This document shows positions 27,176 through 60,290 of a DNA stretch of 64,000 nt, one piece after another. This stretch comes from Desulfovibrio sp. An276 (GTDB lineage Bacteria > Desulfobacterota > Desulfovibrionia > Desulfovibrionales > Desulfovibrionaceae): the NCBI RefSeq assembly GCF_002159665.1, contig NZ_NFJC01000011.1, positions 1-64,000 on the forward strand, in the 5' to 3' direction. Below the pieces are notes generated by a model. That model ran no database searches, had not been told where the DNA came from, and was given only the letters and a program-made list of their open reading frames with translations. Position 1 is the stretch's first letter. Every line of letters starts with the position of its first letter. The position numbers and the translations under genes were made by a program.

Positions 27176-27216
27176 ACTGCACCATTTTCCCGGTTTTGGA
27201 GAAGTGTTGTTGACAT

Positions 27217-27297
27217 ACAAAAAGTCGGGCAGACGTACAGGGAAGTCCGGATACCGGTCTTTCCTGTGCGCTTTCCTCTTGGCGAGGAATGCCCGAC
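27217..27297 (-). ncRNA. Three-way-junction leader RNA or complex terminator before the purine permease
   Basis: On the minus strand, GTCGGGCA and TGCCCGAC (27290-27297 and 27224-27231) close a 74-nt fold. It contains one hairpin TTCCTC/GAGGAA and a second longer hairpin (ACAGG/CCTGT, AAG/CTT, CCGG/CCGG). The closing stem is followed directly by TTTTTGT, so it can act as an intrinsic terminator. It lies 42 nt upstream of the permease start and 12 nt after the EBP 2 stop. It may simply terminate EBP 2, or it may be a ligand-responsive leader. It does not match the guanine riboswitch consensus. Confidence 0.5.
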
Positions 27298-27308
27298 AGT
27301 GAAACGCA

Positions 27309-30177: not shown

Positions 30178-31377
30178 TCAGATTTTCCTGGCACGTCGCA
30201 GCGTCAGACAGGCTGCGCCGGCGAGGAAGCACAAGGCGATGTCGGCATACCAGATACCGCTGTAGTCTCCTGTGTACCTGAGGCAGAGGCCACCGCTCCA
30301 TGCGCTGCAAAAAGCCCCCAGCTGGTGAAGCAGGTAGGTGAAACCGAACAGCGTTGCCAGGCGGCGAGGGCCGAACAGGGTGCCGATAAGGTTGGATGTG
30401 GGGGCAACTGTCGCAACACCGGTCAGCCCCAGACAGAAGATGACAGCAAACAGCGCCCAGTACGGCAGGGGGAGCAACATCAGGGCTACCCACAGACAGC
30501 GAGAACTGTACAGACAGCCAAGTATGCGTTCCATGGGGAAGTAGCGACAGGCCATGCCGCTGCTGATGGAGCCTGCTATGACACCCAGCCCGTATACGGA
30601 AAGCCCCCAGGAAGCCAGCCTGTCCGGAATTCCGAAGGCAGTCAGCTGAGAGAAAAGATGCGTCTGGATGAGGGCCATATGAAATCCGCAGGTGAAAAAG
30701 CCGAAGGATACACGTCTGTACGCAGGGGAAGCTGCTGCAAGGCGCAGCATGTCCGCAAAGCTTTCTCTCGTGCTCTCCACAACCTTCATGGCAGCCTTGC
30801 CGACATGGGTCAGGAAGATGGCGACCGGTACCAGAAGAATGATGGGCGTGGAAAGTAGGAACAGCGTTGTCACAAGCCCCCTGGATGCAAGGCTGTACTG
30901 GAGGAGAGGCGCCAGCAGACAGATGCTGAGACCTATGCCTGCGGCAATGAATCCCGATGCAGTATGGGCCTGTCTGTCAGAAAATACCGGCAGGAGGCAG
31001 CTCATGATGATGCCAAAGGATGCGGCTGCCGTGCCCGAGGGCAAGAGAATCCCCATGGCGATGGTCAGCAGGGTGGCGGAGTGTGTCACAGCACTTGTGG
31101 CAAGGCCTGCCAGCATGAGGAATATGCCGCTGAACAGCACAAAGCGCGGTGACTTGCGTACAGACAGAAAGCCGAAAACAGGCTGCATCAGCCCGAAAAA
31201 CAGCTGTCCCAGGGCAATGATGAAGCTGACCGTTGCGTAGGACAGTCCTCGCTCAGCCACTATGGCTGGCAGCATGATGCCAAAGTTGTCCCTGAATCCT
31301 GCACAAATTGCATACAGGAATGTACCGCACAGGGTACACAGGACAAATGTCGTGCCTGGACATTTCTGCTTTGCCAT
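30178..31377 (-). CDS. MFS transporter in the cobalamin operon
   Basis: A major facilitator of 399 aa with 12 predicted helices and the family loop GFLSVRKSPRFVLFSG after helix 2. AAGGAGCGAGGC precedes the ATG. The position inside a riboswitch-controlled cbi operon suggests a corrinoid precursor, cobalt-related or lower-ligand substrate; nothing in the sequence proves this. The helices are rich in Ser/Thr and Cys (about a dozen Cys), more than is usual for MFS proteins. Confidence 0.8.
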   Translation of the reverse strand: MAKQKCPGTTFVLCTLCGTFLYAICAGFRDNFGIMLPAIVAERGLSYATVSFIIALGQLFFGLMQPVFGFLSVRKSPRFVLFSGIFLMLAGLATSAVTHSATLLTIAMGILLPSGTAAASFGIIMSCLLPVFSDRQAHTASGFIAAGIGLSICLLAPLLQYSLASRGLVTTLFLLSTPIILLVPVAIFLTHVGKAAMKVVESTRESFADMLRLAAASPAYRRVSFGFFTCGFHMALIQTHLFSQLTAFGIPDRLASWGLSVYGLGVIAGSISSGMACRYFPMERILGCLYSSRCLWVALMLLPLPYWALFAVIFCLGLTGVATVAPTSNLIGTLFGPRRLATLFGFTYLLHQLGAFCSAWSGGLCLRYTGDYSGIWYADIALCFLAGAACLTLRRARKI

Positions 31378-31467
31378 AGCCTCGCTCCTTGTCTTGGGTG
31401 GTTTCCGGCTTGCGCACCGTCACTTCCATATCCGTTGTTCAGCAAGAAGCGTTCCAACTTGAGGCTC

Positions 31468-46594: not shown

Positions 46595-46729
46595 GGAAAC
46601 TCTCCAAAAAAAATGAAGGGAACATGAGGCACCCGCAGGTGAAAACGCGATGCGCTTTCTTGGCTACAGTAGTCTACGTACGGCTAAAGTCGACGAAGGT
46701 GCAGCGGCCCAGAAACCCGTGGGTGCAGC

Positions 46730-46920
46730 CAGCAAGGGCGATCAGGTCGGTCTTCCGACTTCCGGGTCTGTCTTCACCAGCGTCTTCCCACTGTTCTTGG
46801 ATGAACGGCAGTGACATGGTGCTGGTGTCGTCACCGGTTACGGCGGCGGGTCCGTGCCGGTCTTGCACCGGCTTCCCAAGGCAGCCCAAATGCTGCCTGA
46901 ACCTGACCACTCCGAGACAG
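46730..46920 (-). promoter_or_regulatory. Cobalamin riboswitch
   Basis: On the minus strand the conserved core is visible in order: GGGAAGCCGGTGCAAGACC, CGGCACGGACCCGCCGCCG then TAA, GTCACTG, a GTGGGAAG stretch and AGTCGGAAGACCGACC. These match the adenosylcobalamin aptamer (the GGTGNNANNCC and AGYCNGGANACCNGCC-type boxes). It lies 140-330 nt upstream of cbiK and should repress the operon when cobalamin is plentiful. An expression-platform hairpin GGTGCAGCGGCCCAGAAACC-type fold (46690-46725) follows. Confidence 0.93.
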
Positions 46921-46940
46921 GAAGAAAAACTTCTTCCCTG

Positions 46941-47513: not shown

Positions 47514-48944
47514 CTAGTAGACAGTCTTGTGCACGCTGTAGCCCTGCGCGGCAAGCAGTTTGCGAGCATCGGCAATGGTAAAGTTTTTCCACTCGGTATG
47601 GGCTTCTTCGCTGTCTCTTGGCACTGCACCGGTCTCGACAACAACGACATTGGCACCCCACGCAAGCGCCTGGGGCACAGGAGGATGCACGCAGATCCAG
47701 GGCATTTTCAATCCACCGCACAAGCGGGTGACAGCGGCAACCTGTGCCAGGCGCTTGTCTGGCAGGGTGGGACTTTTTTCAAAGGGAGTGCCTGGCACGT
47801 TGTTGCGAGCCATAACGCCGCACACGCCTGCTCCCGCGGCCTGGGCGGCCATGAAGCAGGCTGCAATTTCCTCGTTGCTGTGTTCGATGCCCAAGGGCTC
47901 AACCAGATGTGCCAGCACGAGTCCGGCCCTTGGAATACGAGCCAGCGCCTTGCGGCGTTTTTCCGCTACAAAGGGCGTGTCCCTGCCCTCGCCAAGCCTC
48001 AGGGCGTGGTAGATCCCCTGCACACCGGTTTCCTTGAGCGATGTCAGGGCATCAAGAGAGAGCTGGCTCGTGTTGGCAACCAGAATGCAGCCCTCTGGCA
48101 GCATGGTACTGACCTGGCGCATAAGCACACGCAGTCTTTCTTCTCCGTAGTGCTCCGTAGTGCGCAAAATAATCCAGGCAGCTCCATCGTCCACAAAATG
48201 CTTGACTTCCTTTACTATTTCTTCCTGAGACCATTCATGTGGTCTGGTAATGACTCCCCATTTGTCACCAAAGGCGCAGAAGGAACAGTTCATGGTACAG
48301 GGCACGCAGTCGACGCCAATGGCGGCCCATATGGTGGCGGCATTGCCGCTGACACGGGTAGCCACATCCCTGGCCTGACGTCCCAATTCGGCTGCTTCTG
48401 CAGAATCGGGATCAACTGCCAAAAGTCGCAGAATGTCCTCTTTGCGAGCCGGGAGCCCTGCCAGACCTCTTTTTTTTACTGTTTGCACAAATGCCGCAAA
48501 GTCCGGATCACAGGAGTTTCGACAGCTGCAGGCAGGCGCCGGGGCCATGTTCAGCCGGATTACCTTTTCTGGAGCACTGCACTTTCCCGTTTCCCGGATG
48601 AAGGCAATGACACTTTCCAGGTGCTCTACAGAGCTTGCAAGCGAGCTTTGCCAGCGTTCAATGCACTGCATGCCAAGTTCTGTCACGGAATAGATTTTTC
48701 TGGATGGCCCTATGGCGCTGTTTTCTGTTTTTGTAGCAAGTACGCCGCTGCGCTCCATTTCGCGCAGCTTGCGATAGATACCCGTGACATCTGGCGTTCC
48801 TCCGGAAAAAAGGTTCAGATCGGACATTGTCTGAATCAGGCTGTAGCCATACATGGGTTCCCTTGCCAGCAAAGCCAGCAGAATAGGCTGAACATAACGG
48901 GGCAGATTCGCGCCGGTGCAGGGACAAGAGTCAAGCTTGGACAT
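47514..48944 (-). CDS. PadR-like HTH fused to a BioB-like radical SAM domain
   Basis: A 476-aa fusion. Residues ~10-115 are a PadR-type winged helix (LLALLAREPMYGYSLIQTM, GIYRKLREMERSGVL, KIYSVTELGM). A linker carries a Cys cluster (C139, C141, C145). Residues ~150-476 form a radical SAM barrel with C216-TMN-C220-SF-C223 and a BATS-like tail, closest to the biotin-synthase/HydE-type group. Its product is unknown; it may synthesise or modify a cofactor and sense it. The start at 48944 follows GGAGG. It is last of the same-strand genes running from the GRE, although a terminator separates it from the DUF169 gene. Confidence 0.85.
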   Translation of the reverse strand: MSKLDSCPCTGANLPRYVQPILLALLAREPMYGYSLIQTMSDLNLFSGGTPDVTGIYRKLREMERSGVLATKTENSAIGPSRKIYSVTELGMQCIERWQSSLASSVEHLESVIAFIRETGKCSAPEKVIRLNMAPAPACSCRNSCDPDFAAFVQTVKKRGLAGLPARKEDILRLLAVDPDSAEAAELGRQARDVATRVSGNAATIWAAIGVDCVPCTMNCSFCAFGDKWGVITRPHEWSQEEIVKEVKHFVDDGAAWIILRTTEHYGEERLRVLMRQVSTMLPEGCILVANTSQLSLDALTSLKETGVQGIYHALRLGEGRDTPFVAEKRRKALARIPRAGLVLAHLVEPLGIEHSNEEIAACFMAAQAAGAGVCGVMARNNVPGTPFEKSPTLPDKRLAQVAAVTRLCGGLKMPWICVHPPVPQALAWGANVVVVETGAVPRDSEEAHTEWKNFTIADARKLLAAQGYSVHKTVY

Positions 48945-49058
48945 AGGGCCTCCGGTTCCCATATGAACGGGTAAAGTGATGACTGCAGGAAATGAAAAGG
49001 GAAAGAGACAGACACACCTGGCGTACCTGTCTAATGGATATGCACCAATAGAGAAGTG

Positions 49059-49110
49059 AAAAAAAAGCCCTGCGCAAGGATATGTATCCGAAGAAGGTGT
49101 GCGGCAGGGC
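49059..49110 (-). terminator. Intrinsic terminator after the DUF169 gene
   Basis: On the minus strand GCCCTGC and GCAGGGC arms (with flanking CGC pairs) enclose a loop and are followed by eight T residues. Confidence 0.8.
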
Positions 49111-49173
49111 CCAAAGAAGGAGACTGCTTCCTCATGCTAATCCAGGTTGGAGAGGAGGGACAGAAATGCAGCT

Positions 49174-49998
49174 TCACGTTTGGCTTTTGTCCGCTTGTTT
49201 TGTCTTGGGACAATTCGAGCAGGATGTGCCTTTTTTGAAAATGATAAGCGGACAGTTCTTGCAGATGTCACTGCCGGGGAAGCAGTCTCCCGGACGGGTG
49301 ATGGAAGACGAGGCAGTGTGCACACGGGTAGCAAGTCGTTTGACAACGGCTTCGATACGCGCGCCGGGAATAAAGACGTTGCTTTCCCCGCGTTCGGTTT
49401 TGCCTGCGTTGTAGGAACCGGAGCAGGGGGTGCAGAAGTTGAAGGCCGTGTTTTGCCAGCTCCAGATGCTGCCGCCACAGGCGGATGAACTCATCAAAAG
49501 CTGTGTCGGCAGGGGATGTGTATTCGTTGCCGCCATGTAGTCGCAGGCAAGGTGGTAGGCCTGCATGGAATCGCAGTACATGTGCACAACAGATGGCGGA
49601 AGGACAGCCTTTCCCAGTGGACCGACGGCAACGGCAAGCACGCTGTTTGCTGGCAGACGCGGCTTGCTTTCAAGAAAGCGTATGGTCTGCTCTCTGTCAG
49701 TGCAGTATTTCAGGTGCGAGGCTATTTCCTGCTCGTCTATTTTCTGCCATCCAAAGCCAATGCGGGCACTCGAACAGGCAAGTTTTTCCGCTGTGCCGAG
49801 CACGTTTTTGCCCTGCATGCGTGCGGCTATTTCCCACTGGCAGAAGGTGAGTGGTTTGACTGGTTCGAGAAACTCGTTGTTCCTTTTGTAGTTTTCGACT
49901 TCTTCTGGCGTGCAGAGGAAGGTTACTGCTATCGGGTGATGGTAAAGCCTCAGTTCCTCATACAGCAGTGCATCCATTTCTGCGTAGGAAAAGGTCAT
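49174..49998 (-). CDS. DUF169-family protein
   Basis: A 274-aa soluble protein of the DUF169 group (function unknown). Recognisable family features: LRLYHHPIAVTFLCTPEEV, LTFCQWEIAARMQGKNVLG, SSSACGGSIWSWQNTAFN. It has 14 Cys, including a C-terminal CFPGSDICKNCPL...CSNCPK arrangement suited to an Fe-S cluster or zinc. CCGGAGTCTTTC precedes the ATG. It is 74 bp downstream of the DUF4125 gene in the GRE-side gene set. A redox or C1 role is possible but not shown. Confidence 0.82.
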   Translation of the reverse strand: MTFSYAEMDALLYEELRLYHHPIAVTFLCTPEEVENYKRNNEFLEPVKPLTFCQWEIAARMQGKNVLGTAEKLACSSARIGFGWQKIDEQEIASHLKYCTDREQTIRFLESKPRLPANSVLAVAVGPLGKAVLPPSVVHMYCDSMQAYHLACDYMAATNTHPLPTQLLMSSSACGGSIWSWQNTAFNFCTPCSGSYNAGKTERGESNVFIPGARIEAVVKRLATRVHTASSSITRPGDCFPGSDICKNCPLIIFKKGTSCSNCPKTKQADKSQT

Positions 49999-50072
49999 GA
50001 AAGACTCCGGCGTTCGGTTTTCTGGAGAAAATATGGCTCACCTCACGTTGGGGACTGGCCGAGCAAAGCTGC

Positions 50073-50696
50073 CTACACCATTTTTTTCTGATACTCTTCA
50101 GCTTCTTCAAGGCTCGAGAAGCCGCACTGCTGTACTTGGGCAAGCAGTGTGGCCATGGCATCGTTTCGCCCCTGTTTTTTGTGCTGCATTGTATCCTCGT
50201 GTACAAGAGCAATGGTGGCAGGAGAGTAGGTCTTGAGTTCGGCACGCATGTAGGTCTCAAGAGAAGGCATGCCCATCCTGTCTCCCGTGGAACGTGCGGC
50301 ACGTCCAAGTGTTCCAAGTACAGGGTATTTGCTGTTCAGCTCTTCCTTCCAGAGTACATGCTGGGTAACAATGTCTTCAATCAGCTGCATGCTTGCCGGG
50401 GAGACTGTGGGCAGCTGGTCCGCAATGCCTGCGAATTCGTCCGGAAAGGTTGATTCCATCATGAAGCCGTATTTTTCGCTCATGAGGTTGCGGCGATCCT
50501 GCTGTGCCTTGACAAGATCGGCAAGATAGCTGGCCAGCGTGTCGTCCCCCCAGATGGAAAACTGGCTCTTGCGCATGATGACAAAGTCTTCCCTATCATT
50601 CTGGCAGCTGGCCTTGCCACCTGTGTTGTGCACATTGGAAAACATGTCCCATTCAATGCCAATGATGTCCTGGACAAGTTGCGTACGGCTAGACAT
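50073..50696 (-). CDS. DUF4125-family protein
   Basis: A 207-aa soluble protein. The N-terminus (LVQDIIGIEWDMFSNVHNTGGKASCQNDREDFVIMRKSQF) matches the DUF4125 family signature, whose function is unknown. It contains few Cys and no known catalytic motif. The start overlaps the TPR gene by 8 nt with CGGAGGAGACAAC upstream, so both are made together. Its placement between a TPR scaffold and DUF169 beside a GRE suggests an accessory role; this is inference. Confidence 0.85.
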   Translation of the reverse strand: MSSRTQLVQDIIGIEWDMFSNVHNTGGKASCQNDREDFVIMRKSQFSIWGDDTLASYLADLVKAQQDRRNLMSEKYGFMMESTFPDEFAGIADQLPTVSPASMQLIEDIVTQHVLWKEELNSKYPVLGTLGRAARSTGDRMGMPSLETYMRAELKTYSPATIALVHEDTMQHKKQGRNDAMATLLAQVQQCGFSSLEEAEEYQKKMV

Positions 50697-51501
50697 TGTT
50701 GTCTCCTCCGCTCAGATGTTTGCGGCATTCGTCCATATACTGGAGAAAGGTTGCCCTGTCCGGTCTGGCTTCATCTCCGCACTGTTCCAGTATGCGCAAA
50801 GCCTGGGCAAGGCGCTCGCTGGCAACAGACCAGTTTTCCTGCTTTGTCTCGGCTATTCCTACGGCACCACAGGCAAGTGCTGTGTCGAGACGTTCTCCCA
50901 AAAGCTCCAGCTTGATTTCCAGTGCATCAGTATGGAAGTCAGTCCCCTCGCGGTGTTCGCCACACAGGTTGCGCAGGACACCAAGGGCATCAAGACACAT
51001 GGCGACCTGAAGAGAATTGCGGCCATGCAGTTCGGTCCAGGCATCCATGGCCTGACGGACCAGATCCTCCGATTCTGCCAGACGTTCGGAGGCCTGCGCA
51101 CCACCAGCCAGAAAGAATGCTGCCGTTGCTGTCTGATCGTGATTTTTCCCGTAGAGGCTTTCAAGGGTTTTCAGGGCACTGCGTCCTACTTCCATGCCCG
51201 TGTCCATGCTGCCCATGGCAAAGAGGGCACGGGACAACATGACCATGACCCTGGCTGTGAAGGGATGCTGCATGCCGACGGAAGCATAGAGAATTTCCCA
51301 GGACCTCTGCAAAGAGGCTGCGGCCTTGCTGGCTTTGCCTGCAAGAAATTCGCAGGTGCCGAGCCCAAAGAGACTGTTGGCGCGCTCTTCGTCCGTCAAA
51401 TGCTCCATGGCGCAGAGATCTGCGTATATGGCGGCAGCTTCCTCGGGGTGCTCCGAAGACATGAGTTCCTCTGCCTTGTTGAGAAGCTGTGATGCGTCCA
51501 T
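50689..51501 (-). CDS. Tetratricopeptide-repeat protein
   Basis: A 270-aa all-helical protein with about five TPR-like helical hairpins (for example AAAIYADLCAMEHLTDEERANSLFGLGTCEFLAG, then later 40-residue units typical of the TPR_12 type). No signal peptide or membrane segment. An in-frame TGA sits 9 nt before the ATG at 51501, which fixes the start; the ribosome-binding site is poor. It overlaps the DUF4125 gene. Likely a protein-interaction scaffold or chaperone for the neighbouring enzymes. Confidence 0.85.
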   Translation of the reverse strand: MDASQLLNKAEELMSSEHPEEAAAIYADLCAMEHLTDEERANSLFGLGTCEFLAGKASKAAASLQRSWEILYASVGMQHPFTARVMVMLSRALFAMGSMDTGMEVGRSALKTLESLYGKNHDQTATAAFFLAGGAQASERLAESEDLVRQAMDAWTELHGRNSLQVAMCLDALGVLRNLCGEHREGTDFHTDALEIKLELLGERLDTALACGAVGIAETKQENWSVASERLAQALRILEQCGDEARPDRATFLQYMDECRKHLSGGDNNV

Positions 51502-51612
51502 TTTGTGTCAGCGATGGATGTCTGGCACAAGGCCAGAAAACGCTGTCCTCCTTAGCTTGCCGGAATGTCGGGTATGCCCTGACGCTCGTTGGCACTGTTT
51601 TTTCTCGCGTGT

Positions 51613-51640
51613 AGGCCTTGCCTCTGAATCGGCAAGGCCT
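51613..51640. repeat. Perfect hairpin upstream of the TPR gene
   Basis: AGGCCTTGCC and GGCAAGGCCT pair over 10 bp around an 8-nt loop, between the HesB terminator and the TPR start. No U-run; possible leader structure. Confidence 0.5.
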
Positions 51641-51691
51641 GATAGGACAGCCGGGAGAGACGACTGCCACTTTTCACATGGCCCATGACAG

Positions 51692-51724
51692 AAAAAGGGT
51701 CTGCCGGGTTTCCCCGGCAGACCG
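51692..51724 (-). terminator. Intrinsic terminator of the GRE-HesB transcript
   Basis: On the minus strand GGTCTGCCGG pairs with CCGGCAGACC around a short loop and is followed by TTTTT, just past the second HesB-like gene. Confidence 0.9.
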
Positions 51725-51735
51725 GAGCAGCCAGA

Positions 51736-52032
51736 TTAGCCCAGAGCACGAACTGCGGGCATTCCCTTGTCCGTGTCTGTGTAGATTTCATAGGAGGAAC
51801 CGTAGGAGTCAATGACGTCCTCTGAAATGACGAAGGGCAGACCGTCAACCTGCAGCTGCTGATCTTCGTCCTCGACTTCGTCAATGCCTACCAGAAGTTC
51901 CATGTGGCTTTTGCAGCCACCGCCTACCTTTGTTTCCTTGATACGGAAGACTGCGTCTTCATCGTTTTCGCTGGCCAGGATCTGCCTGAACTTTTCCACA
52001 ATGGCGGGATCAACAATCTTGATGGAAACCAT
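51736..52032 (-). CDS. HesB-like protein, cysteine form
   Basis: A 98-aa HesB/IscA-like protein. It keeps the first family cysteine (C40 in KVGGGCKSHMELLVG) but lacks the C-terminal CGC pair of IscA, so it is not a canonical Fe-S carrier. About 60% of positions match the selenocysteine paralog encoded 73 bp upstream. CAAGGAGCACTC precedes the ATG at 52032. A strong terminator follows. A role in protecting, repairing or delivering a cofactor to the GRE or its activase is possible. Confidence 0.85.
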   Translation of the reverse strand: MVSIKIVDPAIVEKFRQILASENDEDAVFRIKETKVGGGCKSHMELLVGIDEVEDEDQQLQVDGLPFVISEDVIDSYGSSYEIYTDTDKGMPAVRALG

Positions 52033-52105
52033 GAGTGCTCCTTGAAGAATGGTTGGATGTTCATGATCCCCGGCCAGCGACAAATTTATGTTACTGGCTT
52101 GGGAA

Positions 52106-52405
52106 TCAGTTTAATGCTCGAACGCCAGGAATGTTATGCTCTTTGTCAGTATAAATTTCGAAAGTTTCGCCGTAGGAATCTATAACATCATTGGAGACCA
52201 CAAAGGGCAGTCCTTCTACCTTGATGTAGACTTCTTCATCGGGATCTTCTGCTTCATCCAAGCTTACACGAAGCTCGAGATGGCTTTTTCATCCACCTCC
52301 TACCTTGACTTCCTTTATACGAAAGAGAGCCTCATCATTGTCTTCTTCCTCGAAGAGAGCCTTGAATCTCTCGACGATTTCAGGTTCTATACCGATCTTG
52401 AGCAT
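52106..52405 (-). CDS. HesB-like selenoprotein with in-frame TGA (Sec39)
   Basis: A 99-residue reading frame from ATG 52405 (CAGGAGATATCT upstream) to TGA 52106, interrupted by TGA at 52289-52291. The interruption falls exactly where the neighbouring paralog has its conserved Cys: KVGGG-[TGA]-KSHLELRV versus KVGGG-C-KSHMELLV. Homology continues on both sides (EGLPFVVSNDVIDSYG; IYTDKEHNIPGVRAL), so this is not a pseudogene end. A SECIS-like hairpin lies directly downstream of the TGA. HesB-like selenoproteins are a described bacterial family; function is unknown, and redox or metal binding is likely. Standard gene finders would miss or truncate it. Confidence 0.9.
52255..52282 (-). promoter_or_regulatory. 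Bacterial SECIS-like element
   Basis: Counting the TGA as 1-3, bases 10-37 fold into CATC-T-CGAGCTT, loop CGTGT, AAGCTTG-GATG: an 11-bp stem with one bulged T and a loop with G23-T24. This mirrors the E. coli fdhF element, which has a bulged U and a GU in the apical loop at the same distance. Confidence 0.8.
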
Positions 52406-52453
52406 AGATATCTCCTGGTGGAGTTTTCCACCTGAGGTTTGAAGTTACGAACG

Positions 52454-52494
52454 AACGATTGCGGGAAATTTCAGGGAAAAAACCCGCAATCGTT
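52454..52494. repeat. Strong intercistronic hairpin between the GRE and HesB-Sec genes
   Basis: AACGATTGCGGG and CCCGCAATCGTT pair perfectly over 12 bp. It lies between the GRE stop and the selenoprotein start. No U-run follows, so it may set relative mRNA levels. Confidence 0.65.
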
Positions 52495-52531
52495 GCCAGA
52501 AGGAAAGAATGCTACTCAGAAAGAGCAGGGT

Positions 52532-54934
52532 TTAATTGTATTCGGTACGCTTGATGATTTCGTCCTGCACACCCTTGTACAGACGGGTGAAGTAGGAGGA
52601 GAAGCCAGCCACGCGCACAACCAGATCCTTGTAGTTCTGCGGCTTGACCTGGGCATCCTTGAGGGTTTCGGAAGAAACGCAGTTGAACTGGATATGGCCG
52701 CCCCCAAGGTCGAAGTAGGTCTTGACAAGATTGAGCAGCATGCGCGTTCCCTTGGGGCCTTCGAGAGCCTCGGGCAGGAACTTCATGTTCATGTGGTTGC
52801 AGTTGTTCCGGACTGTATCAATGGCCTGGGCAGCGGACTTGATGAGAGCCGTGCTGCCATGGGTATCTGTGCCGGGCATTGCAGACACGCTGGCGTCGGT
52901 CAGGGCAACGCCCTTTCTGCGGCCGTTGGGCAGCGCACCTGTCATGGGTGCGAAGTAGTTGTGGTAGGACAGGGAGAAGGGATCCATGTGTGCTTCGTAG
53001 CCGAAGTAGTCCGGGCCGTGAGAGCGATAGGTGCGCTCGACGTCACGGAAGAAGCGGCGGGTCAGCTGGTCAACATCCTCGATGTCGTTGCCGTGCTTGG
53101 GTGCCTCGTAGCACATCTTTTCGATGTCTTCGTGGCCCTCGAAGTTGGCGGCCAGGGCTTCCTTGAGCATATCCCAGGTCAGCTTCTTGGTGTCGTAGAT
53201 GAGGTACTTGATGGCGTAGAGGGAGTTGACAGCGTCAATACCGGTAGCAGTGATGCACAGGGACTGGGAGTACTTGGGACCGCCGGCTTCCTCGCACAGG
53301 CCGGATTCGATGCAGCCGTCAAGCAGGCAGGAGCGGAAGATGTTGGGAACAATCTGTTCGCGGGTACTGTTGCCGAGATCGCTTATCTTGCGCTGGGCGT
53401 CATAGGCGTGATCCATGTGCTGCAGCAGGGCCTGGTAGACTTCCTCAAAGGTATCGCATTCTTCGACAGGCTTCACTTCGGGGAAGACCTGCTTGCGGGT
53501 ATGCGGATCGTAGCCATTGTACATGGTGAATTCCACAAGCTTGGCCAGATTTGGCTGACCTTCGAAGGTCACGTAGGAGCCGCAACCCTGCATGCCTGTG
53601 CCCACGCAGCCGAAGATGACGGGCTTGGTGCGGGCTTCGTCCAGGGTGATGCCACGAGAGGCGAAGCGAACCAGGGAGCGGGCCACTGCTGCGTCCATGT
53701 TCATGAACTGGGGCTGACCGGAGCCGCCGCGCACAACGTCCACAGCCTTTTCGAGGTATTCGGGCTTCATCTTCGGAGTGTAGAAGAGGGCCAGGGTGGG
53801 CTGGATGTTGTGCATGGCGATCTGGGTATCCATCAGCAGCATTTCCAGATCGTTGGAAGCGTCGTCACCATCGGCAGTGTAGCCACCAAGGGAGATGGTC
53901 TGGCCGGTGTGGCCGGAGAAGGCCTTGGCGTAGGCATCGCCCTGGTAGACCGCGATTTCAAGATGCTTCACCCACTGGCACTTCAGCAGGGAGAGGACCT
54001 GTTCCTTGGTCAGGGTGCCTTCGTCAATGTCCTTCTTGTAGAAGGGATACATGTACTGGCCGTAGCGACCAAGAGAGTGACCGCAGCCACACTGCTCGAT
54101 TTCGATGCAGCAGTGGGTGAACCAGAAGGACTGCACGGCTTCACGGAAGTTGCGGGCAGGATACTCGGGAACACGGCGGCAGACTTCGGCGATTTCCAGA
54201 AGCTCGGCCTTCATCTTGGGATCCGTTTCCTTGGCGGCCGTTTCTTCGGCCAGATCGGCGTAACGGTGGGCGTAGGTGATGACCGCATTCAGAGCAATCT
54301 TGCAGGCACGGTAGAATTCTATCTTGGTCCAGTTGGTGGCGTGCTTGGGCAGGGCCTTGTAGGCAGCGTCAACTTCCTCCAGAATGCCGCGCAGACCCTT
54401 GTTGAGGACCGTAGGATAGTTGGCAACGCCGGAACCCGTAGAGTTGTCGTTCACAGGGTAGATCCAGCCGCACTTTACGAGCAGTTCGGCATTGCCGCCA
54501 TACAGTTCCTTGTAGAGCTTGTTGGCGCGATCGTAGGTAGTCTTGCCCTTCCAGGTCTTGTAGACCTGCTTCAGAATGGCCTTGGTCTCGTCGGAGAAGC
54601 GGACTTCACCGAGAGAGGACAGAGCGAGCTTTTCGGAATCCAGGTCGTCCTTGATCCAGTTGCACTGCCATTCGGGGTAGGCATAGATCATGGCCATGCC
54701 GCCTGCCAGGCTGCCGACAATGGGATTGCCGTCAAGGTAAATCTTCTTGTTGGTCAGGACCTTCTCGAAGAGGCGGGCGCGGGTGATGAATACGCTTTCG
54801 CCCTTGCACTCGTCGTAGGTTTCGGCAAGGAACTTCAGACGCTCCGGATCCATCTTCTGATCGGTATCTAGAAGGGCCTGCTTCTGGGTGTTGATGCGTT
54901 CGTCCAGGGTTTCCCAGTTGATTGCGTAAGCCAT
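52532..54934 (-). CDS. Glycyl radical enzyme of unassigned substrate class
   Basis: An 800-aa PFL-like glycyl radical enzyme. The radical Gly is G777 in LVVRVAGFSSYF near the C-terminus; the thiyl Cys is C443 in VIFGCVGTGMQGC. PFL-like landmarks such as GRYGQYMYPFY and SGQPQFMN are present. GRE eliminases (diol, glycerol, choline, isethionate) and aryl-acetate decarboxylases have Glu two residues after this Cys; here it is Gly445, and the stretch is glycine-rich. There is also a Cys-rich strand (C275, C276, C282, C284) and 20 Cys in all. The start at 54934 has ATGGAGACC. A sigma-54 promoter lies upstream. A new reaction is plausible; the imported substrate may be a sulfonate-like anion, from the nearby transporter only. 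Confidence 0.92.
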   Translation of the reverse strand: MAYAINWETLDERINTQKQALLDTDQKMDPERLKFLAETYDECKGESVFITRARLFEKVLTNKKIYLDGNPIVGSLAGGMAMIYAYPEWQCNWIKDDLDSEKLALSSLGEVRFSDETKAILKQVYKTWKGKTTYDRANKLYKELYGGNAELLVKCGWIYPVNDNSTGSGVANYPTVLNKGLRGILEEVDAAYKALPKHATNWTKIEFYRACKIALNAVITYAHRYADLAEETAAKETDPKMKAELLEIAEVCRRVPEYPARNFREAVQSFWFTHCCIEIEQCGCGHSLGRYGQYMYPFYKKDIDEGTLTKEQVLSLLKCQWVKHLEIAVYQGDAYAKAFSGHTGQTISLGGYTADGDDASNDLEMLLMDTQIAMHNIQPTLALFYTPKMKPEYLEKAVDVVRGGSGQPQFMNMDAAVARSLVRFASRGITLDEARTKPVIFGCVGTGMQGCGSYVTFEGQPNLAKLVEFTMYNGYDPHTRKQVFPEVKPVEECDTFEEVYQALLQHMDHAYDAQRKISDLGNSTREQIVPNIFRSCLLDGCIESGLCEEAGGPKYSQSLCITATGIDAVNSLYAIKYLIYDTKKLTWDMLKEALAANFEGHEDIEKMCYEAPKHGNDIEDVDQLTRRFFRDVERTYRSHGPDYFGYEAHMDPFSLSYHNYFAPMTGALPNGRRKGVALTDASVSAMPGTDTHGSTALIKSAAQAIDTVRNNCNHMNMKFLPEALEGPKGTRMLLNLVKTYFDLGGGHIQFNCVSSETLKDAQVKPQNYKDLVVRVAGFSSYFTRLYKGVQDEIIKRTEYN

Positions 54935-55023
54935 ATTGGTCTCCATATGTATAATATAGGGTCGGATGCTATGCTGCGAATTTGCCATTGTGGACGTATG
55001 GCAGCTTGTCTTGTCTGGTAAGT

Positions 55024-55039
55024 TGCAAGAAGCTTGCCA
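55024..55039 (-). promoter_or_regulatory. Sigma-54 promoter of the GRE operon
   Basis: On the minus strand TGGCAA, 5-bp spacer, TTGCA: GG and GC of the -24/-12 elements are 10 bp apart, as required. About 90 bp upstream of the GRE start. Confidence 0.75.
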
Positions 55040-55137
55040 ATCCGGGAACAGTTTAATAACCAATTGAAAATAACTATTATTTACGAAAAATGGGAATTTT
55101 CCAGAGTTTTTGCTTGTCTCTGAGCTGTTTTTGGGGA

Positions 55138-55169
55138 GACAAAATGTGTCAAATCAGACAAAATGTGTT
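55138..55169. promoter_or_regulatory. Tandem operator-like sites upstream of the GRE (possible enhancer)
   Basis: GACAAAATGTGTC (55138-55150) and GACAAAATGTGTT (55157-55169) are repeated 19 bp apart; a looser GACA/TGTC pair follows at 55178-55192. They lie about 100-130 bp upstream of the sigma-54 element, a usual place for enhancer-binding protein sites. Confidence 0.6.
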
Positions 55170-55529
55170 GATTTGGTGACAATATTTCTGTCTTTTCTGT
55201 GCGACGTTCTCTGACCAACCAGCGAAAATAACGAGCAAAGTTTTTGTTTGGCAGCACAGATAGGATACTTTTTCACAAATGGGTCCCCGTTTGTCCCGTG
55301 CATTTTGCCTGATGGAAGGGAACAGGCGAGGGTGGATGATGCGCTGTTTTTGGGGCTGTTTTTGTCCTTGTCGCATACCGGAAAGTACAAGGCAGGATTA
55401 CAGGGCATGATGCACATGTTTGCCTGAGTTTTTTGGGAGAAGGGGAAGAGTACTTCCAAAAGGCGCCAGCCATTTGCCTCTGGCTGCCTCAGGATGACAT
55501 TCTGCGGTTGCAGAAGGCGCTCTCAAAAC

Positions 55530-55545
55530 AGGTACGCAAATTGCA
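55530..55545 (+). promoter_or_regulatory. Sigma-54 promoter of the activase operon
   Basis: AGGTAC, 5-bp spacer, TTGCA with the GG-N10-GC spacing, 63 bp before the activase start on the plus strand. Confidence 0.65.
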
Positions 55546-55608
55546 TGATACCCTAAAAAGACCGGTCAGCACCTGCAGCCGGCACACGAAGATGGAAAAG
55601 GAGCACCC

Positions 55609-56505
55609 ATGAAAGGAATCGTCTACAATATTCAGCGCATGTCCACCAAGGACGGCCCGGGTCTGCGCACCACTGTTTTTCTCAAGGGCTGTCCCCTGCA
55701 CTGCCCCTGGTGCAGCAATCCCGAATCCCAGAGCTTCAAGCCCCAGCTCATGGTGTTCACCAATCTGTGTGTCGCGTGTGGCGCCTGTGCCGCGATCTGT
55801 CCCAACGGCGCTGTCGAGCAGGATGAAGACGGCAAGTACAACAGGGATCTTGCAAAGTGTACCAACTGTGGCGAATGCGCCAAGGTGTGTCCTTCCAAGG
55901 CGCGCGAAATGTCCGGCGAGTACATGACTGTGGAAGAAGTCATGAAGGTGGTTGATTCCGACAGTCTGTTCTACAACAATTCCGACGGTGGCGTGACCTT
56001 TGGCGGAGGCGAGCCAACCGCAGCCGGGGATTTTTTGCTGGAACTTCTGGATGCCTCCATCAGGCGCGGCTACCATATCTGCCTTGATACCTGTGGTGTC
56101 TGTTCGCATGAAATGTTTGCCAAGGTGTTGCCCAGAGTGGATATGTTCCTCTTTGACTGCAAGCACATGGATCCCGAGGAACACAAGCGTCTGACCGGAC
56201 GTGACAACAAGATTATTCTGGAGAATCTGGCAACGGCCCTGAATTCAAAAAAGGATGTGCACATCAGAATTCCGCTTATGCCGGGCATCAACGATACGGA
56301 GAAGAACATTGCTGCCATGGCGGAATTTCTGCATGCCCACGGCAAATACGAGGTTGATGTGCTGCCCTGTCACACGTTTGGGCTGAGCAAGTACGGGGCA
56401 CTCAAGCTGCCCGCTCCCACCATGGTGCCCTACAAGCCGGAAGAGCTTTCCGCAGCCCTCGAACGCTTTGCCAAAAACAATCTCAAGGTGGAACTTATCA
56501 AATAG
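55609..56505 (+). CDS. GRE-activating enzyme (radical SAM)
   Basis: A 298-aa radical SAM activase that abstracts hydrogen from Gly777 of its partner GRE. The SAM-cluster motif C28-PLH-C32-PW-C35 is followed by a ferredoxin insert with two 4Fe-4S sites (C54, C57, C60, C64 and C84, C87, C90, C94), as in activases of non-PFL GREs. GGGEPT (132-137) and DTCG follow. AAGGAG precedes the ATG. It is transcribed divergently from the GRE and has its own sigma-54 element. Confidence 0.95.
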   Translation: MKGIVYNIQRMSTKDGPGLRTTVFLKGCPLHCPWCSNPESQSFKPQLMVFTNLCVACGACAAICPNGAVEQDEDGKYNRDLAKCTNCGECAKVCPSKAREMSGEYMTVEEVMKVVDSDSLFYNNSDGGVTFGGGEPTAAGDFLLELLDASIRRGYHICLDTCGVCSHEMFAKVLPRVDMFLFDCKHMDPEEHKRLTGRDNKIILENLATALNSKKDVHIRIPLMPGINDTEKNIAAMAEFLHAHGKYEVDVLPCHTFGLSKYGALKLPAPTMVPYKPEELSAALERFAKNNLKVELIK

Positions 56506-56652
56506 ATGCATTGCACAGAGAAACATGCCACGTAGTCGGGAGAACTCCTCACCCGCAGGCCGCTCTGGATGCGAAAGGCTTGTCCCTCGTAACCGGAGCG
56601 GCCCATGGCGTTGCAAAAGGTGGGGCTGTGCCGGCAGCGTGAAGGAGGAAGT

Positions 56653-57177
56653 ATGCTGTACATAGAGGATAACAAGCTTGTGCTACGCGAAGAGAATGTC
56701 GCGATCCCGGATCACTTTGCCACAGTTTTGCATGGCAGAGCGGAGAAAATGTACAAGTCCGGCAGATTTCGCTGTGCCGAGGCTGTGGTGCGCTCCTTTA
56801 TAGATGTTACGGACCAGAAGCAGCTGCGCCCCCTGGTAGCCATGGCTTCCGGCTTTGGCGTGGGCATGGAGAATTCCAGAAGTCTCTGCGGTGCCCTTGC
56901 CGGTGGTGTCCTTGTGCTGGGCATGCTGTTCGGACGGGACAAGCCTGGAGATGCGAAAGTCGATCGCTGCCAGAAACTGGCAGGGGAACTGCACGATGTC
57001 TTTGTCAAAAAGCATGGCAGTGCCATCTGCTGTGCTCTTGTGGAAGGTTTGGCAGACGGAAGCCCGGAGCGTGAGGAACGTTGCGCTCTGTATTGTGCGG
57101 ACGCGGCTGCCATGTTGGGGACCATAGTGGAGCGCGAATGGTTTTCCGGCGCCTGCTGTCAGATAGGAGGTCATTAG
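56653..57177 (+). CDS. C_GCAxxG_C_C family protein
   Basis: A 174-aa soluble protein with the family cysteine pattern: FRCAEAVV, SLCGALAGGVLVLG, DRCQKLAGEL and GSAICCALVEG. Members are thought to be redox proteins, sometimes in electron-transfer clusters; the role is not proven. The start at 56653 follows AAGGAGGAAGT. A hairpin (GGCCGCTC/GAGCGGCC) lies in the 148-bp gap after the activase. It may provide low-potential electrons to the activase or act on a thiol/sulfur product. Confidence 0.83.
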   Translation: MLYIEDNKLVLREENVAIPDHFATVLHGRAEKMYKSGRFRCAEAVVRSFIDVTDQKQLRPLVAMASGFGVGMENSRSLCGALAGGVLVLGMLFGRDKPGDAKVDRCQKLAGELHDVFVKKHGSAICCALVEGLADGSPEREERCALYCADAAAMLGTIVEREWFSGACCQIGGH

Positions 57178-57242
57178 GAAGCGGACCCCTTCGGGGGGTA
57201 TACGGGAGGGGCGTGCCTGGCTGCGGAGCCTTGTGCGCCAGA

Positions 57243-58319
57243 ATGCCAATGAAATCAAAAAAGTACCTCTTTTTCGCTGTTTGTGCCGCCTTGCTTGTCG
57301 CAGGTCTCTCGTGCCTTGCCCCGGGCACGCCCGGGGCAGCCTCCGCAGGCGATCCTGCGCAGGAGAAAACCTGGAATCTGCGCGTGGGGCAGATGGGTAC
57401 AAACCTGAAACCGTCCATGGTGCTGCTGGCCTGGAAGCTTGGCTACTACCGCGACGAGGGCCTGAACGTCACCCTTGCGCAGTTTTCCGGTTTCAACGAC
57501 GCCATGGTAGCCCTGACCCTGGGCAAGATGGACATCCTGCCCTATGGCGTCATCCCCACGTGCAGCTTTGTTGCCCAGGGCGCGAAGCTCACCATTTTTG
57601 GCGGCACCATCTCCGAGGGCAGCGCCTGCGTGACGCTCCCGCAGCGGGCCAGGGAATTTTCCACCCTGGAGGCCTTCAGGGGCAAGACCATAGCCGTTGT
57701 GCGCGCAGAGACAGGGCACATGTTTCTGAAGCGCGAGCTGCGCAAGGCTGGCATCCCGCTTTCCGAAGTGCGCTTTGTGGAACTGCCCTATTTCCAGTCC
57801 GTGCTTGAGGCCGTGCACAAGAAGCAGGCCGACGCAGGCATCACCAACACGGGCTTTGAGCTCAACGCAAAAATCCAGGGCCTTGCCGTTCCCTTTGCCA
57901 TTGCCCAGTATGTGCCCAATTTCCCCTGCTGCAGGCAGACCTGTGCCACGGAGGCCCTGGAAAGGGATCGCGAGCCCTATGTCCGCTTCCAGCTGGCAAA
58001 TTTGCGGGCCATGAAGACCATGTACGACAATCCCGAACTGACCGTGAAGACTCTGGCAGAGTTTTCCGGACAGAGCGAGGAGTACGTGCGCTACTTTGTC
58101 TACGACAGCCTCATGCGGATCACCATGGATCCGGGCAGGGAGAAGGTCCTGGAATTCTACCAGGTCATGAAGGACAATGGCGATATCGATGCGAACACGC
58201 CCTTCGGGATGGAGGAGGCCATTGATACCTCCGTCTATCGCGATGCCCTGGACCGTGCCCTTGAGCGCTGGCCCAACGACAGGAATTTGCAGCGGATGAA
58301 GGCCGAATTCGGGGAGTAG
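57243..58319 (+). CDS. ABC transporter substrate-binding protein (SsuA/TauA/NMT1-like)
   Basis: A 358-aa exported solute-binding protein. The start is ATG 57243 (or ATG 57249, both weakly supported), giving a signal sequence (KKYLFFAVCAALLVAG, with a Cys two residues on). Family features: VGQMGTNLKPSMVLLAWKLGYYRDEGLNV, ALTLGKMDILPYG, GKTIAVVRAETGHMFLKREL. This family binds sulfonates, nitrate, taurine or pyrimidines. It starts the transporter set SBP, ATPase, permease behind the C_GCAxxG gene. Substrate unknown. Confidence 0.87.
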   Translation: MPMKSKKYLFFAVCAALLVAGLSCLAPGTPGAASAGDPAQEKTWNLRVGQMGTNLKPSMVLLAWKLGYYRDEGLNVTLAQFSGFNDAMVALTLGKMDILPYGVIPTCSFVAQGAKLTIFGGTISEGSACVTLPQRAREFSTLEAFRGKTIAVVRAETGHMFLKRELRKAGIPLSEVRFVELPYFQSVLEAVHKKQADAGITNTGFELNAKIQGLAVPFAIAQYVPNFPCCRQTCATEALERDREPYVRFQLANLRAMKTMYDNPELTVKTLAEFSGQSEEYVRYFVYDSLMRITMDPGREKVLEFYQVMKDNGDIDANTPFGMEEAIDTSVYRDALDRALERWPNDRNLQRMKAEFGE

Positions 58320-58498
58320 GGCGTACCTCTTCGGAATTTCGCGCGGCCGACTATTGGTGCAACACTCATAACAGAGCGCATCCAGTAGCTGGCATGGGCA
58401 GCCCAGGGCTGCAGGCTGTTGCCTTGCATATTGGCAAACAGGGGTCGGATCCACGAGGGATCCGGCCCTTTCCCAGGTTGAGGATAGAGGAGGAATCA

Positions 58499-59329
58499 AT
58501 GGGGTGCGTTGAGGTCAGGCATGTCAGCTTTGCCTACGGGGGAGCAAGCCCCCTGCTTTGCGATCTCGACTTTTGTGTGCCGGACGGGTCCTTCTTCTCC
58601 ATCTTGGGGCCGTCCGGCGGAGGAAAGACCACGCTCTTGCGGCTGCTGGCAGGATTGCTGCGGCCTTGCGCAGGCAGCGTAGTTTGCGCAGGCAGGGAAG
58701 TGCTTGCTCCGGGCAGGGACAGGGCCATAGTCTTTCAGCAGGGAGGCCTGTTTCCCTGGCTCACGGCCCTCGGAAATGTGGCTTTTGCAGCATCCAAGAC
58801 GCATCCGGGCATGTCCAGAAAGGAGTGCCGAAGCCTTGCCTCGTCCATGCTCGATCGGGTAGGGCTTTCCCAAGACATGAACAAGTGGCCGGTACAGCTT
58901 TCCGGAGGCATGCGCCAGCGCGTTTCCATTGCCAGGGCCCTGGCAATGGAAACGCAGGTGCTGCTCATGGATGAACCCTTTTCTGCCCTGGACTACAAGA
59001 ACCGCTGTCTTTTGCAGGATTTGCTGGGCGAGCTGTGGCTCGCAAGCCACAAGACCGTGATCTTTGTGACCCACGACATCGACGAGGCGCTGCTCTTGTC
59101 GGACAGCATTCTTTTTCTGGACGGCACAAGAAACATGCCGGCCATGGCAGTGCCCTATCCCCAGCCGCGCTCACGCTCGCTGCTCACCACAACAGCCTTT
59201 TGCGAGCTGCGCAGGCATTTTATTGCGCTCTTCAACAGGGAGCACAGTCCCCTGGGCATATCCGCGGACCAGCTGCTTTCCCTGCGTGATCAGGCTTCGG
59301 GCCAGGGGATACAAAGCGGGGAAGAATGA
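58499..59329 (+). CDS. ABC transporter ATPase (SsuB/TauB-like)
   Basis: A 276-aa nucleotide-binding subunit. Walker A GPSGGGKTT, Q-loop VFQQGGLFPWLTALGNV, signature LSGGMRQR, Walker B VLLMDEPFSALD and the switch His in FVTHDIDEA are intact. The PWLT segment is typical of nitrate/sulfonate/taurine importers. GAGGAGGAATCA precedes the ATG at 58499. The stop is 1 bp from the permease ATG. Confidence 0.93.
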   Translation: MGCVEVRHVSFAYGGASPLLCDLDFCVPDGSFFSILGPSGGGKTTLLRLLAGLLRPCAGSVVCAGREVLAPGRDRAIVFQQGGLFPWLTALGNVAFAASKTHPGMSRKECRSLASSMLDRVGLSQDMNKWPVQLSGGMRQRVSIARALAMETQVLLMDEPFSALDYKNRCLLQDLLGELWLASHKTVIFVTHDIDEALLLSDSILFLDGTRNMPAMAVPYPQPRSRSLLTTTAFCELRRHFIALFNREHSPLGISADQLLSLRDQASGQGIQSGEE

Positions 59330-59330
59330 G

Positions 59331-60290
59331 ATGAAACGCCATATTGCTGTCCACATGCTGTTTGTCCTGCTGATAGTCCTGACGATCTGCTCCAATCTCC
59401 AGGCCCTCCAGGGTGTGCGGGTTGCCGTGAGCGGTCTTACCGCGGCCAGTCCAGGGGGTGCCATGCTGACATCAAGGCACCCGGGCATGTTTCTGGGCGT
59501 GACAATTCTTCTGGAACTGATCGTTTGCCTGCGCCTGCGCGGCAGGGGAGATCGGCAGTCCGTTGCGGACGTAGGCTGTCTGCTTTTTTTCGCGCTTCTT
59601 GTCTGGGAGCTGATCGCCACAACACTGCGTGCCGGCCACCCCATTCTCTGTCCGCCCCCGGAAGCCGTCTTTGATGTCTTTCGCAGCCAATGGAAACTCA
59701 TGCTGCGGGGAATGGGCTCCTCCCTGCAGCTTCTTGGCGCAGGCTTTGCCATTGCCTTGCCCCTGAGCCTTGTGCTGGGGGCCCTGGCCGGATGGAACAG
59801 GCGTTTTCGGGGAGTGACTGTCCCTGTCGCCCGGGTAATGGCGCCTGTGCCAGCCATCATCTACGCGCCGTATATCATTGCCATTATGCCCACCTTTCGC
59901 TCCGCAGCGGCCATGGTCATCGTGCTGGGGATTTTCTGGCCGGCCTTTTTGCAGACAGTGAACCGCGTGCTGGCCATGGACAGGGAAATTCTCGACAACG
60001 CTCGCATGCTGTCGCTTTCCAGCGCGGAAATGATCTTTCAGGTCCTGATTCCCTGGATGTTGCCAGGGGTTGTGGCCGGGCTGAGGGTCACGCTGTCCAC
60101 CTCCTTCATGCTGCTCATTCTGGCGGAAATGATGGGAGCCACAAGCGGGCTTGGCTATTTCATCAAGAACTTTGCGGACTATGCCAACTACACCAATGTC
60201 CTGGCCGGCATTATTCTTGTGGGGTGTGTGGTCAACGTGCTGAACCTCATTCCCGCGCTGCTCGAGCGCTACATGAAATGCTGGCGCTGA
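59331..60290 (+). CDS. ABC transporter permease (SsuC/TauC-like)
   Basis: A 319-aa polytopic permease. The binding-protein-dependent transport region includes LILAEMMGATSGLGYFI and the EAA-type loop DNARMLSLSSAEMIFQVLIPWMLPGV. The N-terminus has two extra membrane helices (residues ~5-25 and ~55-75) compared with minimal SsuC. It ends at a strong bidirectional terminator. Completes the importer with the SBP and ATPase. Confidence 0.92.
   Translation: MKRHIAVHMLFVLLIVLTICSNLQALQGVRVAVSGLTAASPGGAMLTSRHPGMFLGVTILLELIVCLRLRGRGDRQSVADVGCLLFFALLVWELIATTLRAGHPILCPPPEAVFDVFRSQWKLMLRGMGSSLQLLGAGFAIALPLSLVLGALAGWNRRFRGVTVPVARVMAPVPAIIYAPYIIAIMPTFRSAAAMVIVLGIFWPAFLQTVNRVLAMDREILDNARMLSLSSAEMIFQVLIPWMLPGVVAGLRVTLSTSFMLLILAEMMGATSGLGYFIKNFADYANYTNVLAGIILVGCVVNVLNLIPALLERYMKCWR

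Follow-up and report, generated by a model that had tools for sequence, protein, structure and literature searches.

A conserved glycyl-radical enzyme and selenoprotein gene partnership in Desulfovibrio-type bacteria

Introduction

Glycyl-radical enzymes (GREs) drive much of the anaerobic chemistry of gut and sediment (trimethylamine, H2S, p-cresol). Contig NZ_NFJC01000011.1 of Desulfovibrio sp. An276 (RefSeq assembly GCF_002159665.1, 3.2 Mb) carries a GRE gene beside two genes for small HesB-like proteins, one with an in-frame TGA, and a divergently oriented gene for a radical S-adenosylmethionine (SAM) activase. A first-pass annotation of the stretch analyzed here (positions 1 to 64,000, in the following "the window") had joined these genes and all their neighbors between 47,514 and 60,290, among them an ABC importer, into a single candidate system. 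Which of these genes belong together, and what might they do? The genes named in that annotation were all found where it had placed them, by matches to Pfam and NCBIfam, and genome comparisons indicate that a distinct, conserved GRE-selenoprotein system almost certainly exists. Its fixed unit, as seen in these comparisons, is the GRE, its activase and one or more dedicated proteins of the ErpA_rel family, often a selenocysteine/cysteine (Sec/Cys) pair. In the window, the relevant features are:

52532-54934, minus strand: GRE, PFL-like (Pfam PFL-like 528 bits, Gly_radical 97 bits)
55609-56505, plus strand: GRE activase, radical SAM protein with ferredoxin-type Fe-S motifs (TIGR02494 351 bits, cut-off 174)
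52106-52405, minus strand: predicted selenocysteine copy of ErpA_rel with in-frame TGA, 99 aa (NF033940 109.7 bits; UGA/Cys column; selenocysteine insertion sequence, SECIS)
52244-52291, minus strand: UGA and SECIS hairpin GAGCUU-CGUGU-AAGCUU, starting 12 nt past the UGA
51736-52032, minus strand: cysteine copy of ErpA_rel, 98 aa (NF033940 126.2 bits, cut-off 65)
51698-51723, minus strand: terminator-like hairpin 3' of the ErpA_rel pair, present as previously noted and splitting the minus-strand genes into units

Co-occurrence of GRE and ErpA_rel across genomes

ErpA_rel genes were counted above the NF033940 cut-off (65 bits), which both window copies exceed, and GRE genes at E<=1e-130. Among 348 genomes of the class, ErpA_rel is found in 52, the GRE in 55 and both in 51. 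The 52nd ErpA_rel genome (G167) can be credited with a truncated GRE gene: its contig C66 matches by coordinates locus L035, where the contig edge falls inside the GRE gene. Four GRE genomes have no ErpA_rel over the cut-off: G001 and G156, which show weaker matches, G182, and G338, where the gene is partial. Most of the 80 ErpA_rel copies that pass the cut-off (71) are located no farther than 3.5 kb from the GRE; one is at 8.5 kb, and eight reside on contigs without a listed GRE. A sample of 395 genomes from the phylum yielded five with ErpA_rel, all of which also contain the GRE.

Gene neighborhoods were compared in 49 loci, some of which represent the same genome twice and four of which (L016-L019) fall outside the clade of the window GRE; the home-made gene caller behind the counts overlooks some genes, e.g. 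DUF4125 in L102 and L105. An activase homologue is present in 46 of these loci and an ErpA_rel-like gene in 43. The six loci devoid of the latter are the off-clade L016-L019 as well as L004 and L106, where the contig ends near the GRE. The comparison across genomes that had been proposed as a check came out constant for GRE, activase and ErpA_rel and variable for DUF4125, DUF169, the importer and the PadR-radical SAM fusion.

The presence of ErpA_rel and GRE is patchy within genera, yet matched. Carrier genomes are not independent because nearly all belong to one bacterial family, and Fisher values, being blind to common descent, are given no weight. One carrier, genome G361, comes from a different family, and its GRE shows 89% identity. 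In its locus L158 (G361:C1:158000-177900), genes for a DUF4037 protein, the activase, the GRE, two ErpA_rel proteins and a DUF4125 protein form a group. Genes for ISL3 and DDE transposases flank it on one side, where an ABC-F-like ATPase is also encoded; the opposite flank has genes for an IS200-like transposase and a type I restriction subunit. The cassette looks as if it had been transferred as a unit. In the literature searched, with subscription papers outside our reach, we found no description that links a GRE to a HesB-like selenoprotein. The system is also present in D. piger ATCC 29098 (L006), which we take to be the same strain as DSM 749.

The GRE family and its active site

The window GRE comprises 800 aa, counted from MAYAINW, and displays the hallmarks of its class, i.e. 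a PFL-like domain, a glycyl-radical loop of the type RVxG[FY]S (RVAGFSS, with Gly777), an active-site cysteine (Cys443 in GCVG) and an adjoining radical SAM activase. Cys284 is a second cysteine invariant in the clade. Scored against the NCBIfam equivalogs for GRE enzymes, the protein reaches 87-484 bits with cut-offs of 994-1150, and none was passed; for the named enzymes checked (CutC, HYPD, HpsG/HpfG, IAD, HPAD and PFL) it stays below every curated cut-off. The earlier view that this GRE is unlike known ones holds for the named families tested. By sequence score, its nearest relatives in the PDB are CutC and dehydratases, and these are distant. In a 30-row tree that has no rows for isethionate lyase, benzylsuccinate synthase, HPAD or PFL, the window GRE falls into a nine-row clade with an SH-aLRT support of 100. 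The closest rows outside the clade are the likewise uncharacterized L016-L019, and CutC, HYPD, HpsG-type and dehydratase-type rows are placed elsewhere. By these comparisons, the clade is an uncharacterized family of Desulfovibrio-type bacteria. Beside the clade GRE of locus L146, a second GRE with its own activase is encoded (L146:14287-16737; 28% identical).

Residues were counted in 37 core sequences at least 52% identical to the window GRE and in 21 other GREs. At residue 445, two past the catalytic cysteine, the core sequences have Ser (25), Gly (9), Ala (2) or Thr (1) and never an acidic residue, whereas the other GREs have Glu (15), Asp (2), Gln (3) or Ser (1); the Glu/Asp typical of dehydratases and lyases at this place is absent from all 37. 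The Asp of the RFDQ motif is replaced by Gly (residue 292) in each of the 37 as well. Since that Glu and the RFDQ Asp are both lost, a Glu-assisted mechanism of the dehydratase/lyase type is probably not used. Cys284 is invariant in the core set, and only one of the 21 other GREs (L016) has an equivalent. In the alignment, Cys284 takes the place of the His in the glycerol dehydratase motif NGHS, a residue that is presumably a substrate ligand.

Selenocysteine in an A-type fold

The first-pass annotation had described the small proteins as a Sec/Cys pair of HesB-like proteins. This was borne out: they form an ErpA_rel pair of A-type fold, and conservation, SECIS, SelB and tRNA-Sec back the selenocysteine. 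The UGA occupies the VGGG-U-KSH position of the Sec copy and, when read through, falls on an aligned Cys column, mostly VGGG[U/C]. The SECIS consists of a 6-bp stem and a 5-nt loop 12 nt downstream of the UGA. With the stem register chosen as the best of 40 scanned within the Sec set, an intact stem is seen in 34 of the 37 distinct Sec copies versus 3 of the 24 Cys copies. Not counted were copies scoring below 80, the duplicate L081, identical sequences and two copies from L084/L103 whose site is unclear. Double changes occur in three of the six base pairs, and registers slid by 1-3 columns score worse. Two weaker measures were equalled in 13-16 of 500 shuffles. Taken alone, the hairpin of the window is only modestly stable (z -1.66; 10 of 200 shuffles equally good). 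The host genome encodes SelB (348 bits) and tRNA-Sec (75.6 bits). Given conservation, the SECIS comparison, SelB and tRNA-Sec, we take the window TGA to be a selenocysteine codon; an in-frame UGA at a Cys position, a downstream SECIS, SelB and tRNA-Sec are what marks a bacterial selenoprotein gene. A nonsense mutation is ruled out by the aligned UGA/Cys column and by the conservation and paired changes of the SECIS.

Counting only copies over the cut-off, with the residue not confirmed copy by copy, 24 of the 52 genomes have both TGA-containing and TGA-free ErpA_rel genes, 20 only the former and eight only the latter. One of these eight (G106) has a TGA copy just under the cut-off.

Functional A-type Fe-S carriers use a three-Cys ligand set that includes a C-terminal CxC. 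The predicted ErpA_rel structure (pLDDT 94) matches IscA, SufA and DsrR, so that the fold fits, though the ligand set of a functional carrier is not found: ErpA_rel proteins mostly keep one Cys/Sec, and none of 24 aligned copies has the C-terminal CxC. HesB-like selenoproteins have been listed for Desulfovibrio since 2006 (PMC1794560).

Accessory genes

The minus-strand genes beyond the terminator and the gene next to the activase are:

50689-51501, minus strand: TPR protein, accessory (homologous cluster in L001, L002 and L035)
50073-50696, minus strand: DUF4125 protein, recurrent GRE-locus accessory (228 bits)
49174-49998, minus strand: DUF169 protein, occasional accessory (152.7 bits)
47514-48962, minus strand: PadR-radical SAM (BioB-like) fusion, local addition
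about 56653-57177, plus strand: C_GCAxxG_C_C redox-type protein, occasional accessory (90 bits)

The comparison does not support the idea that the whole listed gene set constitutes one system; the PadR-radical SAM fusion counts as a local addition, and so does the ABC importer. DUF4125 is found in at least 18 of the 49 loci. It also occurs in 107 of the 348 class genomes, often near other GREs, and cannot be counted as a part specific to this GRE system. Among 22 copies in genomes of the window's own genus, 12 have a GRE no more than 15 kb away, against a rough null of 2%, and for eight of these the GRE is one outside the clade. DUF4125 genes 6-10 kb from off-clade GREs were seen in G005, G013, G015, G016, G020, G023, G025 and G028. 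The GRE concerned in G016 (L093) is CutC according to NCBIfam, the one in L094 has the CutC active-site motif, and those in L092, L095 and L096 share the motif of the HpsG-typed L091. A limonene ring-cleavage operon from which DUF4125 and DUF4037 proteins are expressed, following a GRE-activation gene, is described in PMC12583861. Taken together, this suggests that DUF4125 is a general accessory of GRE loci. Its predicted structure is all-helical (pLDDT 92.6), and a PDB match at E<=0.001 was not found.

DUF169 is present in 10 of the 49 loci, and the C_GCAxxG_C_C protein has matches in 15 of 161 loci, several of them overlapping. The PadR-radical SAM fusion matches L035 only among the 161 loci and is full-length in two of 26 genomes (G000, G167), with the halves separate or one of them missing elsewhere; as a core part it is ruled out. 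In G329 (C158:19818-23190), separate PadR and radical SAM genes homologous to both halves lie about 2.1 kb apart. Further upstream in the window, a cobalamin riboswitch (46728-46921, minus strand, 96 bits) precedes a CbiK-like gene, and open reading frames from about 30 to 47 kb read as a long run of cobalamin-biosynthesis-like genes.

Transcriptional control

Features that may connect the locus to sigma-54 are:

55024-55039, minus strand: sigma-54 -24/-12 site of the GRE, TGGCAAGCTTCTTGCA, 1 mismatch
55530-55545, plus strand: putative weak sigma-54 site ahead of the activase gene, AGGTACGCAAATTGCA, 10/12 matches
24226-25719, plus strand: PAS-sigma54 activator, probable cognate regulator (56% identity to L101/L003 activators)

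One-mismatch sites in the window number two, with 1.22 expected, which by itself does not exceed chance. Comparison is more telling: of 44 related GREs, 37 are preceded by a site with at least 10/12 matches, with 0.36 expected from mononucleotide shuffles, the 44 upstream regions including duplicates and GRE reading frames outside the clade. Of the sigma-54 promoters earlier assigned to both divergent units, that of the GRE is upheld and that of the activase is a weaker candidate.

A sigma-54 activator is encoded in 38 of the 49 loci; in the window it is distant from the GRE. The product of 24226-25719 is the window's closest match to GRE-adjacent activators (56% identity, 53% in the sensor, to L101/L003; 54% to L152). 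Pfam recognizes PAS domains, alongside Sigma54 domains, in the activators of the window, L101 and L152; in that of L153 it recognizes no PAS domain. It is probable that 24226-25719 encodes the cognate regulator, displaced from the GRE. A second sigma-54 activator (27309-28775, minus strand), 46% identical to the first, adjoins a permease-like reading frame (25850-27445, minus strand).

Transporters and type of substrate

57249-60290, plus strand: SsuABC/NitT-like ABC importer (SsuA/NMT1-like protein, ATPase, permease), local addition downstream of the activase
30178-31377, minus strand: MFS anion transporter, probable regulon member (58% identity to L101 MFS)

The ABC importer gives a weak SsuA match (71 bits, cut-off 163.5) and weak NtrB/SsuC matches. 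Its binding protein and permease were found in none of the 161 loci at E<=0.001, which rules it out as a core part; the ATPase alone has weak matches (55-108 bits) in nine of them, as expected of any ABC ATPase. The MFS protein resembles the one encoded near the GRE in L101, which is itself weakly similar to lactate/oxalate-formate MFS proteins, below the cut-offs. Upstream of the window MFS gene lies a sigma-54 site (31441-31456, minus strand, 1 mismatch), one of the two best in the window, and the transporter is probably a member of the GRE regulon. Probable regulator and anion transporter, at 24-31 kb, are both beyond the range previously marked (47,514 to 60,290). Other loci contain amino-acid permeases (21/49), TauE/SafE-type genes (18/49) and parts of TRAP importers (6-9), and in four of six permease upstream regions examined a sigma-54 site matches at 10/12 or better. 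The importers attached to these loci, for anions or amino acids, are lineage-specific, and they suggest small anionic or zwitterionic substrates without fixing one.

Possible function and alternative explanations

We tentatively propose, at a little less than an even bet for the statement as a whole, a thiol/selenol-partnered GRE family with dedicated ErpA_rel proteins and a small imported anion or zwitterion as substrate. The activase would place the radical on Gly777, from where it would move to Cys443 as a thiyl. The substrate, a small anion or zwitterion, would be held without the Glu/Asp pair, with Cys284 offering a second thiol where dehydratases have substrate-binding residues. ErpA_rel proteins might dock on the GRE as thiol/selenol partners and donate or accept electrons or hydrogen in the course of turnover, or else restore the thiols of the GRE. 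This role of external partners is proposed by analogy with class III ribonucleotide reductase, for which PMC4390871 documents thioredoxin as thiol reductant, and the mechanism by itself ranks somewhere between a minority view and an even bet. A reductive GRE, in which the Cys443 thiyl works on the substrate together with Cys284 and a Sec/Cys A-type heterodimer re-reduces the thiols oxidized in the reaction, appears unlikely; if true, it would be a selenol-dependent GRE outside ribonucleotide reductases.

Several observations weigh against the proposed partnership in catalysis. Eight further genomes of the phylum have GRE homologues (36-49% identical) and show no ErpA_rel at the threshold used, and L016, a locus without an ErpA_rel gene, nonetheless carries the equivalent of Cys284. 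That Cys284 faces Cys443 may be so, judging from the alignment with glycerol dehydratase and the ligand numbering of that enzyme. Selenocysteine is not essential, as the seven other genomes with only TGA-free copies show, together with third copies that lack both Cys and Sec at the reactive position, e.g. the ErpA_rel-like L001:6405-6674. Contact between GRE and ErpA_rel, activity and substrate are here predictions.

ErpA_rel could instead be a dedicated Fe-S or maintenance factor for activase or GRE, acting in cluster delivery or radical repair and outside catalysis. Fold and NCBIfam name do indicate A-type Fe-S carriers and the activase bears extra Fe-S motifs, but the C-terminal CxC is lacking in all 24 aligned copies, L016-L019 combine GRE and activase without an ErpA_rel gene, and selenocysteine would be unusual for a cluster carrier; we regard this role as rather unlikely. 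Much the same grade, doubtful and on the improbable side, goes to a C-S lyase that cleaves a sulfonate or another organosulfur compound, the Sec/Cys proteins capturing or passing on the sulfur product and feeding sulfite reduction. It would agree with the TauE/SafE-type genes (Pfam confirmed on one), the SsuABC-like importer of the window, the TRAP parts, DsrA in 11 of 12 genomes tested, the fold match to DsrR and the cleavage of isethionate by a GRE in D. piger and Bilophila, reported in PMC6453916. However, the sulfonate ligands of isethionate lyase given there (Arg187, Gln191, Arg676) are absent from the window GRE when aligned through HpsG-type sequences as a proxy, the isethionate lyase sequence itself not being included. 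Moreover, G112 (100% complete) carries the system and shows no match to DsrA, the 19.9 kb around L158 contain no recognizable gene for a transporter or for sulfur metabolism, and taurine as acceptor gave no growth of D. piger DSM 749, again according to PMC6453916.

Finally, the neighbors might be a lineage coincidence without shared function. Descent of nearly all carriers from one family would allow for this, and several window neighbors are local indeed; still, the patchy and matched presence within genera, the adjacency of 71 of the 80 ErpA_rel copies to a GRE and the joint occurrence of the set among transposase genes in another family render it highly improbable. Coincidence is contradicted for GRE, activase and ErpA_rel; as an explanation of the ABC importer and of the PadR fusion it still holds for now.

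Relation to known systems

Small cysteine-bearing partner proteins are also a feature of benzylsuccinate synthase and 4-hydroxyphenylacetate decarboxylase (HPAD), two multi-subunit GREs, and their small subunits are not known to have the A-type fold. The window GRE reaches 412 bits on the HPAD large-subunit model (cut-off 1150) and 251-363 bits with PDB entries of benzylsuccinate synthase. CutC and glycerol/propanediol dehydratases give the top sequence scores among solved GREs, and DUF4125 also occurs near CutC-type loci; in contrast to these enzymes, the window clade has the GCVE Glu and the RFDQ Asp replaced and the additional Cys284, and the CutC model yields 414 bits (cut-off 1050). Isethionate lyase (IslA/IseG) and the HpsG-type (sulfopropanediol) GREs likewise pair GRE and activase in Desulfovibrionaceae, with TRAP or MFS importers, and Sec/Cys partners go unmentioned in the part of PMC6453916 available. 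The window GRE differs from them by its missing sulfonate-binding residues and catalytic Glu and by the separate position of HpsG-type rows in the tree, and an identity as isethionate lyase is rejected on the absent ligands, as judged by the HpsG-type proxy, and on that position. Class III ribonucleotide reductases resemble it, by analogy only, in a second active-site Cys, the rarity of the catalytic Glu and, in some, an external thiol reductant (PMC4390871), whereas the window GRE is PFL-like and its candidate reductant a Sec/Cys A-type protein.

ErpA_rel shares its fold with IscA, SufA and DsrR and departs from the IscA/SufA carriers in its single Cys/Sec, the lack of CxC and its tie to a GRE. 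The HesB-like family of 2006 comprises a HesB-type Sec protein in Desulfovibrio species as well, and the portion of PMC1794560 at our disposal makes no mention of a GRE. On NCBIfam IscA_HesB_Se (cut-off 85), the Cys copy of the window reaches 19 bits, compared with 126 on ErpA_rel.

Significance

The GRE-selenoprotein partnership is real and conserved, smaller and sharper than the gene set originally listed. DUF4125 is indicated as an accessory common to several GRE loci. The discovery of a new GRE family has often led to a new reaction, and a long-known type of HesB-like selenoprotein gains a concrete partner, so that the functions of both can be tested together.

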